Assembly (NCBI RefSeq): GCF_011398355.1
Contig: NZ_AP021889.1
Coordinates: forward strand, 124,001-188,000
Length of the DNA: 64,000 bases
Source: Thiosulfatimonas sediminis
Lineage (GTDB): Bacteria > Pseudomonadota > Gammaproteobacteria > Thiomicrospirales > Thiomicrospiraceae
Direction of reading: 5' to 3'
Shown here: positions 1 through 9,440 of the stretch, piece after piece
How the letters are laid out: each line of letters begins with the position of its first letter
How positions within the stretch are numbered: the first letter of the stretch is position 1
Notes under the pieces: model-generated
The model's input: the letters and a program-made list of their open reading frames with translations, nothing else
The model's database searches: none
Told to the model about the DNA's origin: nothing
Position numbers and translations under genes: made by a program

Positions 1-510
1 AATCAGTTTTTGGTGATGAAACATTTTATTGGTCCGCAAGTACCAGCGTATTTTTTGCCGCTGACCTTAGAGCAGTTACCCGTGTCTACAAAGGGTGGCG
101 CTTTTGATACGGTGTTTTCGATGGGCGTTTTATATCACCGTCGTTCACCGATTGATCATATTTATGAGCTTAAGGCACAGCTGAGGGCGGGCGGCGAATT
201 GGTTCTGGAAACCCTAGTGGTACCGGAATCATTTGGTCAGCTGTTGGTACCTGAAGATCGCTATGCGCAAATGCGTAATGTTTGGTTTTTGCCGTCTGTG
301 CCGGAACTGGAAATCTGGTTGCGCCGTTGTGGATTGGTGAATGTGCGTTGTGTTGATTTAGACCAGACCTCGATTGAAGAACAGCGTAGCACCGAATGGA
401 TGGAATGGAACTCGTTGCAAAGTTTTTTGGATCCGCAAGACCACAATAAAACCATTGAAGGCTATCCGGCACCTCTGCGCGCTGTGATGGTGTGCAATAC
501 CCCACAGTAG
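1..510 (+). CDS. cmoB: tRNA U34 carboxymethyltransferase CmoB, C-terminal part (5' truncated by window edge)
   Basis: The frame is open from the first base, so the gene starts outside the window; about 169 residues remain of a protein usually near 320. CmoB transfers a carboxymethyl group from carboxy-SAM to 5-hydroxyuridine at position 34 of tRNA, giving cmo5U. The visible part includes the class I methyltransferase segment [16 protein letters not shown], typical of CmoB, followed by the [10 protein letters not shown] strand and the family's C-terminal region with [11 protein letters not shown]. The assignment comes from recognising these family segments; the SAM-binding glycine loop lies upstream of the window. 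Confidence 0.9.
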
Positions 511-682
511 CGGAACAGCGGTTTTTTAGCGATTGAGCAGGTTGTTTCGGCAATGTAGGTAGAGTTTCTTGTTAAGATGAAATACCTACTATATTTAGCG
601 TAAGTAAAGTTTTCATTCACTACTGGTTGTGGATAAGCTTGTGGATTCTTGCGCTAGATTTTTTGGCCAACGCTGATATAGC

Positions 683-1333
683 CTAGCTTTGCGGTAGGGT
701 TTGCCAATCTGGATAACCTTGCGCCATACGGCTGGCTTGAAACGCTTGTTGGTTGAGTTGTTCAACCGCTTGATAAGACCACAAGCAGTATGGACCGCGA
801 CAATAAACAATCAATGGTTTATCTTTGGGCAGCATTGGCATTTTGTCGGCCAGTTGGTCGATTGGGATATTAATCGACCCTTTAATATGGCCGAATTGAT
901 ATTCGTCTTCCGGACGAACATCCAATAGGGTGATCTCGTTAGCGTCTAAATGTTTTTTAAGTTCTTTCGGATTGAACGGCATTAAGGGCGCTTTGGGGTT
1001 TAATTGTTGATGCAAAATTTGTGAAACTTCGGCCATTTGCTGTTCTGCAACTTGGCGCATAGCATGAATTAGCGGCACAATCTCCGGTGTGCTAAGGCGA
1101 TAAATGCGTTGCGAACCGTTTTTTTCGCAGATAACTAGTCCGGCTTGTTTCAAGCTTTGCAAATGTTTGGAGACATTGGCAATGCTCAATTGCAATTTGT
1201 TGCTTAGGGTTTCAACGTGTTGCGGCGCCTGCGCGAGGATATCTAAAATCATCAGGCGATTGGCGTGTCCGAGGGATTTGCCGATTTGGGCAAGCTGTTC
1301 AAATAGGCAGAGTTTTAAATTAGCGGTTTCCAT
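683..1333 (-). CDS. ArsR-family regulator fused to a rhodanese domain
   Basis: 216 aa. Residues about 10-85 form an ArsR/SmtB winged helix (helix-turn-helix around VETLSNKLQLSIANVSKHLQSL). Residues about 122-212 form a rhodanese domain with the active-site loop CRGPYC (Cys178, Cys183). Such fusions are predicted repressors that sense sulfane sulfur, metals or redox state through cysteines; Cys9 and Cys69 lie in the DNA-binding half. The start is the only good in-frame ATG, but its ribosome site is weak. A perfect 9-2-9 palindrome lies about 180 bases upstream (1514-1533) and is a candidate operator. The inducer cannot be told from sequence. Confidence 0.85.
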   Translation of the reverse strand: METANLKLCLFEQLAQIGKSLGHANRLMILDILAQAPQHVETLSNKLQLSIANVSKHLQSLKQAGLVICEKNGSQRIYRLSTPEIVPLIHAMRQVAEQQMAEVSQILHQQLNPKAPLMPFNPKELKKHLDANEITLLDVRPEDEYQFGHIKGSINIPIDQLADKMPMLPKDKPLIVYCRGPYCLWSYQAVEQLNQQAFQASRMAQGYPDWQTLPQS

Positions 1334-1375
1334 TTCGTTTTACACGGTTCCATTTACATCAGTTTATTTTAACCT

Positions 1376-1428
1376 AGCAAGGCGCTAAACACCTCGCTGA
1401 AGCGATGTAAACTTATTCAGTGTCTTTT
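1376..1428 (-). repeat. MITE-like repeat copy, one end only
   Basis: Read on the minus strand from the flanking TA (1429-1430) it starts AAAAGACACTGAATAAGT, nearly the same as the terminal repeat of the copy at 9130. Similarity continues through CTTCAG and GTTTAGC. The other terminal repeat was not found, so this looks like a decayed or truncated copy. Confidence 0.55.
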
Positions 1429-1485
1429 TAGTTTTACTTTATGGTGTGTGATAAAAAAGTTTAATTATTGATTTTAAAATAAGTT

Positions 1486-1533
1486 TTGACATTTTTAGGG
1501 CAATGCAAGTAATATTCAACCAAATGGTTGAAT
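1486..1533 (+). promoter_or_regulatory. Sigma70-like promoter overlapped by ArsR-type palindrome
   Basis: TTGACA at 1486-1491, an 18-base spacer and TAATAT at 1510-1515. Overlapping the -10 box is a perfect inverted repeat, ATTCAACCA (1514-1522) and TGGTTGAAT (1525-1533), with a 2-base centre. ArsR/SmtB operators commonly have such arms around a 2-base centre and sit over the core promoter. The neighbouring ArsR-rhodanese gene is the obvious candidate repressor; that link is an inference. Confidence 0.5.
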
Positions 1534-1624
1534 GCTGTAAATATAAAAGACTTTTTGGGAAAAATGCAACCGTGGCCATTTTCAATGCAATACGCCAATG
1601 TAATTGAAAGTGGCATCGATTCTA

Positions 1625-1668
1625 AGGAGAGATAGAACAAGTCAATGAAGACCTATTCTGTCTCTCCC
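1625..1668 (+). repeat. Minimal 44-bp MITE-like copy: two terminal repeats back to back
   Basis: AGGAGAGATAGAACAAG on the left matches 13 of 17 with the reverse complement of the right end (GGGAGAGACAGAATAGG). TA lies on both sides (1623-1624, 1669-1670). The inner GTCAATGA matches the right-hand interior of the 9130 copy, so this looks like an internal deletion derivative. Confidence 0.65.
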
Positions 1669-1798
1669 TAATCTTGACCAGTTGATTTTGGTATTTCTGG
1701 AAGAACTGGTCGAGGGCGGATTGATTTAGTTTTTAGTGTGCCATTCGCTCTGATCTAGCTATTTTAAATTTTTGAAAACCATACTTGATGATGCTCTT

Positions 1799-1822
1799 TA
1801 CCTCTTTGTTGAGGTTTTTTTG
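1799..1822 (+). terminator. Rho-independent terminator (orphan)
   Basis: ACCTC (1800-1804), a 6-base loop, GAGGT (1811-1815) and a run of T. No plus-strand gene lies upstream, which supports a non-coding transcript or an attenuator. Confidence 0.55.
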
Positions 1823-2102
1823 TTTTTAAGGCTTTGATTTTACCGGGTGTTGGAAAACGAGCGCTTTAATATCGGCATGAATGTCTCTTGACTTTGGAAA
1901 GCTTCATCGCCATTCTTTTTATCTTCTTTGTCAAGTCGCGGTGTTGTTTTACCTGCTCAAGGTAAAATTCAGTGCGTGCGATGATGACGTTTTGCGTAAG
2001 TTCAGGTCTGTGTTTATTTATGCTGGCTGTCAACGTCATGCAATGAAGATTCACTTACTGTTTATACGTCGATTTATCGTCTGAATTTAAAGGGTCTATA
2101 CC

Positions 2103-3083
2103 ATGCCAGCACAAGCAGAATTTGCAGCGCTAAAACGCCATCTACAATCCGTGATTGTTGGGCAGGAGCCGCTACTTGATAAGTTAATGGTGGCGTTACT
2201 GACGGGTGGGCATGTGTTGCTAGAAGGGCCTCCGGGTTTGGCCAAAACCACGGCGGTTAAAGCCTTGGCAGAAGGGATTCACTCCAGCTTTCAACGGATT
2301 CAGTTTACTCCGGATTTAATGCCCGGTGATGTGGTTGGTTCGGATGTATTGGAAAAAGACACTGGCGCTTTGTGCTTTGTACCTGGGCCGATTTTTCACG
2401 ATATTGTACTGGCGGATGAAATTAACCGTGCGCCGCCAAAAGTGCAGTCGGCCTTACTTGAAGCGATGGCTGAAAAACAGGTAACCGCGAGTGGTAAAAC
2501 CCGCCCTTTACCGGAGCTTTTCTTAGTTTTGGCGACGCAAAATCCACTTGAGCAAAACGGTACATATCCTTTGCCAGAAGCGCAACTTGACCGTTTTATG
2601 CTGCATATTCTGCTCGATTACCCAAGCCCAGAAGAAGAACTGGAAATTTTACGACGCGATCGGCAGCGTCATTTTGGTGAAGATCATGCCAGTTTACACA
2701 GTGCCTTAACCCCTGCGCAGGTGATGCAAGCGCGGCATCAAGTCGCTGAGCAGTATGTTAGCGAGCCTGTCGAAGCTTATATGGTGCATTTAGTTACTGC
2801 AACGCGCCGTTTAGCAGAACTGGATAGTGCTATGCAGGATGTATTGCAAGTTGGCGCGTCACCGCGAGCATCTTTGGCATTGTTGCATGCCAGTTGTGCT
2901 TGGGCGTGGTTACAGGGTCGCGATTTTGTGACACCCGATGATGTACAGGCGATGTTGCCGGATGTGTTACGCCACCGAATTATTCTGAGCTTTAGTGCGC
3001 ACGCTCATGGTTGGCACGCTGATAAAATTATTCAGCGGATTATTGAATTGGTGCAGATTCCGGTCTTGGATCATGCAAACTGA
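2103..3083 (+). CDS. MoxR-family AAA+ ATPase
   Basis: 326 aa, full length for the family. Walker A is GPPGLAKT (about residues 41-48) and Walker B is VLADEINRAPPKVQSALLEAM, followed by the sensor region ATQNPLEQNGTYPLPEAQLDRF. MoxR ATPases act as chaperones that assemble or activate VWA-domain partners. This is the first gene of a tight operon with DUF58, DUF4381, two VWA proteins and BatD, the usual Bat arrangement. The ribosome site AAGGG stands 9 bases before ATG. The stop overlaps the next gene by 11 bases. Confidence 0.92.
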   Translation: MPAQAEFAALKRHLQSVIVGQEPLLDKLMVALLTGGHVLLEGPPGLAKTTAVKALAEGIHSSFQRIQFTPDLMPGDVVGSDVLEKDTGALCFVPGPIFHDIVLADEINRAPPKVQSALLEAMAEKQVTASGKTRPLPELFLVLATQNPLEQNGTYPLPEAQLDRFMLHILLDYPSPEEELEILRRDRQRHFGEDHASLHSALTPAQVMQARHQVAEQYVSEPVEAYMVHLVTATRRLAELDSAMQDVLQVGASPRASLALLHASCAWAWLQGRDFVTPDDVQAMLPDVLRHRIILSFSAHAHGWHADKIIQRIIELVQIPVLDHAN

Positions 3084-4062
3084 GGCATTTTTGCCGCTGA
3101 ACTCAGCGCAAAGCGGTGAAATGATGGCGCAGCTTGACCAATGGCAACTGCAGCCGTATTGGAGTAAGCATCTTTCGCAGCAGCCGTTGCAAGGTGCGCA
3201 AAACAGTCGTCGACATGGGAGCGGCACGGAGTTTGCGGAAAGTCGTCCGTACACACAGGGGGATGAAATACGGCATCTGGACTGGCGCTTAATGGCGCGC
3301 AGCGGTGAGGCATTTAGCCGTCGCTTCGAGGAAACTCGGCAAGCCCAATGGTGTCTGTTAGTTGATATGCGTGCCAGTATGTGGTTTGGTACTCGTCGTC
3401 AGTTTAAAGTCACTCAAGCGCTGAAGCTGGCCGCTTTAATTGCGTGGCAGGCGCAGCAAAACCAAGCCACCTTGAAACTATGGGTTTTAAGTGAGCAAGG
3501 TTGCGTGCGCTTGTCGCTGAGTAATTTACATGGCCATTCTCTGGTGTTATCCCTCCTGAAACAGCTTAATCGTCCACAAAATACCTGGCAATCGACTGAT
3601 AACAAAGCCTCGATAAGCTTGGCGCATGGCTTGGGTGAATTGTTTGTGCAAGTGGACAGTGGTAGCCGTATTTTTGTGTTAAGCGATCTGCATGATTTAA
3701 ATGCAGACGATCATTTTGCCAAGCAACTTCCTATTTGGCAGCGCCGCTTGGATTTGCAATTTCTTTGGCTGTTCGACCCCGCTGAAGTGGCCTTACCGTC
3801 CGCACCAGGTTTACAGCTCGTTGGGGCCCTTGGTAAAGCGTTGCGCTTGGATCGCTCAGCCGCGCGCCAAGCTTATCAAGTTTGGGCGCAAGCGCATTTT
3901 GCGCAGTTAGAACAGGTTTTGGCACAAAGTGGCGGTCATTATGCAGCAGTGAGTACGCAGGTGGCTTTAGAGGACTTAGCGAGTGCTTATCAGCAGTTAT
4001 TTATTTATCCTTTAGGTGTGCTGGCTTGGATTGGCCGTAACTCGGAGGCAGAGCATGGCTGA
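3073..4062 (+). CDS. DUF58 domain protein of the MoxR/Bat operon
   Basis: 329 aa. The segment GSGTEFAESRPYTQGDEIRH and the following LDWRLMARSGE are the DUF58 signature; a VWA-like fold follows (LLVDMRASMWFG, then IFVLSDLHDL). DUF58 proteins accompany MoxR ATPases; biochemical function is not established. I chose ATG 3073 over upstream in-frame starts because it gives an 11-base overlap with moxR, whereas the longer form would overlap by nearly 90 bases. It overlaps the next gene by 8 bases. Confidence 0.88.
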   Translation: MQTEAFLPLNSAQSGEMMAQLDQWQLQPYWSKHLSQQPLQGAQNSRRHGSGTEFAESRPYTQGDEIRHLDWRLMARSGEAFSRRFEETRQAQWCLLVDMRASMWFGTRRQFKVTQALKLAALIAWQAQQNQATLKLWVLSEQGCVRLSLSNLHGHSLVLSLLKQLNRPQNTWQSTDNKASISLAHGLGELFVQVDSGSRIFVLSDLHDLNADDHFAKQLPIWQRRLDLQFLWLFDPAEVALPSAPGLQLVGALGKALRLDRSAARQAYQVWAQAHFAQLEQVLAQSGGHYAAVSTQVALEDLASAYQQLFIYPLGVLAWIGRNSEAEHG

Positions 4063-9097: not shown

Positions 9098-9440
9098 ACA
9101 AGGATCAAAATCCAATTGGTTTTAGTTTAGGGAGACACTGAATAAGTCCAAATGACTTCAGGCATAGAAGCGTTTAGCTGAGCAAGGCAGATGTTTTTAG
9201 CCATGTTTAGACCTGACAAAAACAGGTAACACAGCGCATTTCAAAGCCCCTACGTGAGCGGCTTACAGGTAACTTCGTCGTTGCGCTTTCCGTCCATCAC
9301 TTTGGCTATGTATTTCGAAGCAAACCTAGAATTTACTCCTTGTAAGAGCTTGCTGAGGTCAACGAGGGCTTATTCTGCGTCTCCTTAGGTGAAAAATTGA
9401 CGTCTCGTAGAATTTTTCAAGCCAGGTACTGTCTTTGTTC
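9098..9440. other. 343-base gap filled mainly by a repeat element
   Basis: Between batD and the convergent small membrane gene. Bases 9130-9385 are the longest copy of the MITE-like family. The remaining bases show no gene or clear terminator. Confidence 0.7.
9130..9385 (+). mobile_element. MITE-like element, longest copy (256 bp)
   Basis: The left end GGGAGACACTGAATAAGTCC and the reverse complement of the right end AGGAGACGCAGAATAAGCCC agree at 16 of the 19 bases after the first. TA stands immediately outside both ends (9128-9129, 9386-9387), the target duplication expected of IS630/Tc1-mariner type transposition. No coding frame inside. This copy is the best reference for the family. Confidence 0.75.

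Follow-up and report, generated by a model that had tools for sequence, protein, structure and literature searches.

The locus and its two-way promoter

The stretch of DNA analysed here (64 kb, hereafter the window) comes from a complete genome of 2.72 Mb and carries, between the gene for an ArsR-rhodanese regulator and the operon headed by moxR, two opposed promoters that share a palindrome, followed by a series of hairpins:

683-1333, minus strand: arsR-rhodanese regulator gene (216 amino acids; ArsR-type helix-turn-helix [HTH] domain plus a rhodanese domain with CRGPYC; Pfam)
1386-1441, minus strand: decayed terminal-repeat copy of a mobile family (matches the G009 repeat end at 15 of 21 positions; 78% identical over 58 bases)
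1486-1515, plus strand: rightward promoter, TTGACA/TAATAT
1491-1519, minus strand: leftward promoter towards arsR, with the -35 element TTGAAT (1519-1514) inside the operator and a weak -10 element AAAAAT (1496-1491)
1514-1533, no strand: predicted ArsR-rhodanese operator, ATTCAACCA-AA-TGGTTGAAT, a pattern found near arsR-rhodanese genes in relatives
1568-1621, plus strand: hairpin 1 (z -2.6)
1623-1670, no strand: hairpin 2, made of two terminal repeats that face each other; a short member of a mobile, MITE-like inverted-repeat family
1673-1714, plus strand: hairpin 3 (z -4.3)
1800-1822, plus strand: weak terminator-like hairpin (5 pairs, -6.7 kcal/mol, run of seven T)
2103-3083, plus strand: moxR (AAA ATPase; Pfam AAA_3), first gene of the downstream operon

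The rightward promoter consists of the -35 element at 1486-1491, an 18-base spacer and the -10 element at 1510-1515, and with 10 of 12 matches to the consensus it is the near-consensus promoter that the initial annotation had described. That annotation also placed a perfect 9-2-9 palindrome over the -10 box; the palindrome is indeed perfect, but its position was loosely worded, as the overlap with the -10 box amounts to the final two bases of that box and the palindrome lies mostly over the expected start site. The leftward promoter reaches 8 of 12 consensus matches in the window. Since two palindromes of the 9-2-9 type occur in the 64 kb, a form that is by itself not rare, the meaning of this one derives from its conservation.

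Conservation of the operator among relatives

Among the 32 genomes of the genus, the palindrome pattern is present at 7 sites in five genomes (control pattern: 0), and none of the matches is farther than about 4 kb from an arsR-rhodanese gene. When mismatches are allowed, most of the other arsR-rhodanese loci also carry the operator, often two or three times, in near-identical variants with one or two mismatches. Because the pattern occurs only near arsR-rhodanese genes in these 32 genomes, the palindrome very probably serves the adjacent ArsR-rhodanese regulator as its operator, and the assignment made in the initial annotation is therefore very probably right. No second intergenic operator was found in the genome studied here: the single one-mismatch site, and the one two-mismatch site that looks like a palindrome, were considered and rejected, as both lie inside open reading frames, and two-mismatch sites as a class are at chance level (20 versus 15 for the control).

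The arrangement of promoters and operator is kept in eight related genomes, in which the rightward -10 element runs into the operator and the operator holds the leftward -35 element. In G031, G022, G008 and G006, the rightward -10 element ends in the first two bases of the operator, and the same register applies to G014 and G002 if a spacer of 18 bases is taken. The right half of the operator reads TTGAAT, the -35 sequence of the leftward promoter, which takes the form TTGAAT-16-TATAAT (10 of 12 matches) in G008, G014, G015 and G002. Comparison of these sequences establishes that a palindromic operator overlapping promoter elements has been conserved together with the regulator gene, and it strongly supports the view that the site is a two-way promoter-operator, a real and conserved repressor switch.

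Two further arrangements were observed at the loci of relatives. G010 possesses two near-identical clusters of arsR-rhodanese, sulfur and MFS transporter genes (L049, L050), with three operators before each MFS gene. In G008, G006, G014 and G002 (L044, L045, L046, L048), a gene for an alpha/beta-hydrolase-fold protein of about 304 amino acids sits between the operator and arsR, and for this reason it is probably part of the leftward unit in these four genomes.

The ArsR-rhodanese regulator and its probable signal

The regulator unites an ArsR-type HTH domain and a rhodanese domain in one protein; its matches to the Pfam families HTH_5 (2.1e-9) and Rhodanese (3.9e-19) are both above the Pfam cut-offs, and the HTH_metalloreg model scores 68.4 bits (cut-off 55). 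Seven genomes of the genus contain intact homologues with 64-73% identity, and 11 others contain more distant homologues. The cysteine pair of the rhodanese domain (CRGPYC, once CRGPFC) is kept in all 19 aligned homologues, while the same 19-row alignment contains no conserved cysteine in the DNA-binding domain. Metal sensing, which the initial annotation had entertained, is hence unlikely; the location of the family-wide cysteine pair in the rhodanese domain points to sulfane sulfur rather than to metals. Judged by its domains, the repressor would probably be released when the rhodanese cysteines carry sulfane sulfur. The operators of relatives are accompanied by a gene for a metallo-beta-lactamase resembling sulfur dioxygenases and by a Sulf_transp/TsuA-like transporter gene, a neighbourhood that fits a sulfur signal.

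Several ArsR-type repressors, among them BigR, SqrR, sHdrR and SoxR, respond to sulfide or sulfane sulfur (PMC5823870, PMC12423496, PMC8960804). BigR is a sulfide sensor whose operon is found in Xylella and Agrobacterium (PMC5823870), and SqrR, sHdrR and SoxR are sulfane-sulfur repressors that are thought to leave the DNA on exposure to sulfane sulfur (PMC12423496, PMC10451225). The system described here is similar to that of BigR with respect to the ArsR-type repressor and to the sulfur-related genes at the loci of relatives. It differs in that the regulator has a rhodanese domain of its own and lacks a cysteine pair in the HTH domain, and its score with the BigR model (41.3 bits) is far below the cut-off of 155. 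The two conserved cysteines in the ArsR fold that characterize BigR and SqrR, and with which SqrR, sHdrR and SoxR sense their signal, are not found in this protein, in which the rhodanese cysteines alone are conserved. We did not find a paper on an ArsR-rhodanese fusion in this group in the literature.

A transporter gene probably lost between arsR and moxR

In relatives, an MFS transporter gene (Pfam MFS_1) separates arsR from the moxR operon. In G031, G022, G008 and G006 this gene comes immediately after the same promoter layout and is followed by moxR, and the same MFS protein adjoins the operator in G010, G020, G027, G003, G009 and G011. The gene is missing, while the operator is kept, in the genome studied here as well as in G014, G002 and G015. 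A C-terminal remnant is recognizable in G014 (18.8 bits; among 100 shuffles of the window interval, the highest score was 4.2). Between 1534 and 2102 of the window no such remnant was detectable, since profile scores are no better than those of shuffles; a 15-residue match at 1673-1717 was rejected as a remnant on the same grounds. Nor is there an orthologue of the MFS gene elsewhere in this genome. The loss of the gene from the window is thus deduced from its presence in relatives.

A tree of MoxR, which represents one gene and contains several open forks, places the genome studied here apart from G014, G002 and G015, and near G009, G022, G031 and G020. Because of this separation the losses look independent, and the MFS gene was apparently lost once here and separately in the group of G014, G002 and G015. 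No further genome of this species was found.

The moxR operon downstream of the operator

The linkage of the operator to moxR is evident in relatives, where moxR follows the same operator either directly or through the MFS gene. The operator lies 240-340 bases before moxR in G014, G002 and G015; in G003 it precedes moxR by 131 bases and is accompanied by a promoter of the form TTGAAT-18-TATAAT. No terminator was found between operator and moxR in G014, G002 and G003. At moxR loci that are devoid of a nearby arsR-rhodanese gene, no operator is present within 1.5 kb upstream of moxR. G009, the closest genome with respect to moxR (89%), holds another gene in its cmoB-moxR stretch and no arsR. Behind cmoB, at 625-650 of the window, lies the sequence TTGTGGATAAGCTTGTGGATT with two DnaA-box-like words, and a near-identical stretch is present upstream of moxR in G009 (L101).

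One could argue that the operator has been kept solely for the autoregulation of arsR, and that the rightward promoter survives as a relic of the lost MFS gene and gives an idle RNA that ends at 1822, with moxR served by a promoter of its own. The leftward promoters of several relatives are strong and have their -35 element in the operator, and the terminator-like element at 1800-1822 would also suit this proposal. We nevertheless regard it as rather doubtful: in the window it is the rightward promoter that is still near consensus and the leftward one that is weak (8 of 12), the operator of G003 stands directly before moxR, and a scan against the promoter consensus revealed no good moxR-proximal promoter and none between 1516 and moxR that is better than the rightward one.

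The interval between the promoter and moxR

The region behind the promoter had initially been annotated as 300 bases devoid of a gene but rich in structure, and both observations hold. No plus-strand open reading frame of at least 60 amino acids starts between 1534 and 1880, moxR begins at 2103, and three hairpins, at about 1568-1621, 1623-1670 and 1673-1714, are followed by a terminator-like element at 1800-1822. A minus-strand open reading frame of 62 amino acids (1866-2054) reads like a protein, and neither a Pfam match nor a relative in the genus was found for it.

The predicted fold of 1522-1823 is more stable than that of all shuffles (z -4.5), and hairpin 2, hairpin 3 and the terminator each have a z-score below -4 (hairpin 1, -2.6). 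Folding of the reverse strand is about equally strong (z -4.05), and the z-score of the stretch falls to -2.6 when hairpin 2 is left out; the signal hence reflects inverted repeats at the DNA level rather than a property of a single RNA strand. Terminator-like elements on 1-4000 are not more numerous (seven) than in shuffles (5.6). The stretch as a whole is unmatched in the 31 other genomes of the genus, which yielded short fragment matches only, and 1534-2102 is unmatched in the plasmid collection. The window contains no Rfam match at the gathering score. Hairpin 1 has no match in the same genome or in the genus, and neither it nor hairpin 3 has convincing relatives; a weak match of 28 bases between hairpin 3 and a helicase gene of G020 (L003) is probably due to chance and was dismissed.

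Hairpin 2 originates from a repeat, as initially proposed. Each of its arms matches the terminal repeat of an amplified family at 16 of 21 positions, in facing orientation. The consensus repeat end (up to three mismatches) has 53 hits in the genome studied here and 87 in G009, and at most four in any other; a control yielded none or one (none in the genome studied here). The family is thus abundant in these two genomes only. Hairpin 2 itself is more diverged than the three-mismatch limit of this count and has one clear second copy in the same genome. Copies of the family measure about 44 to 300 bases, short hairpin forms like hairpin 2 among them. With their facing terminal repeats, size and many copies they are similar to MITE-like elements, of which hairpin 2 is a short, diverged representative; we take the ends of the family to resemble those of IS5-type elements. 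Further copies or ends (end TAAGGARACRCAGAAYAAGTCC) are found in the window at 9128-9387, 27549, 39412 and 1386-1441, with the ends at 9128 (plus) and 9367 (minus) bounding an element of about 260 bases.

These data bear on the two functions initially suggested for the interval, a small RNA or an attenuated leader of the moxR operon. A near-consensus regulated promoter, followed by a folded region that lacks an open reading frame and ends in a terminator, is what a trans-acting, repressor-controlled small RNA of about 300 bases would be expected to show. Such an RNA is very unlikely here, as the stretch is not conserved in the 31 other genomes, the fold signal is equal on the other strand and largely due to the mobile repeat, and a simpler promoter history with the MFS gene and moxR is at hand; the proposal of a dedicated small RNA is thus not supported, given also the mobile origin of hairpin 2 and the role of the promoter in relatives. 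The idea of a moxR leader fares better. That this leader acts as an attenuator, with the hairpins and the terminator at 1800-1822 switching folds to set the entry of transcripts into moxR, is in turn highly improbable in spite of strong local hairpins: relatives have no counterpart (they possess another leader or none), hairpin 2 comes from a mobile repeat, no Rfam family is matched, and the predicted fold contains no recognizable alternative pairing of the anti-terminator kind.

A probable leftover leader under the control of a retained switch

We consider it reasonably likely that a retained ArsR-rhodanese promoter now serves both moxR and arsR across a decayed leader with a weak terminator, and that any short RNA is a by-product. 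A dimer of the repressor would bind the 20-base palindrome and so cover the -10/start region of the rightward promoter and the -35 element of the leftward arsR promoter, blocking both; sulfane sulfur on the rhodanese cysteines would then cause the repressor to let go. The ancestral rightward transcript would have comprised the MFS transporter gene and then the moxR operon. With the MFS gene lost, transcription would read through about 570 decayed, repeat-bearing bases into the moxR operon and stop in part at 1800-1822, maybe giving a short RNA of about 300 bases. Because the promoter of relatives drives a transporter gene that is lost here, this RNA is most likely a leftover leader and not a selected small RNA. 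Two findings count against our explanation, namely the terminator-like element with its good T run between the promoter and moxR, and the undetectable remnant of the MFS gene in the window.

It is conceivable, albeit quite improbable, that the loss of the MFS gene left an orphan promoter that captured the repeat hairpin and the terminator, so that a new species-specific small RNA or attenuator came under the control of sulfane sulfur.

For an ArsR-rhodanese fusion that has received little study, the locus offers an operator that can be tested. In sulfur-oxidising bacteria, a single regulator would tie together an MFS transporter, sulfur genes and the moxR operon. The locus also shows clearly how an intergenic region with a promoter and RNA-like structure can resemble a small-RNA gene although gene loss and a mobile repeat account for it better.
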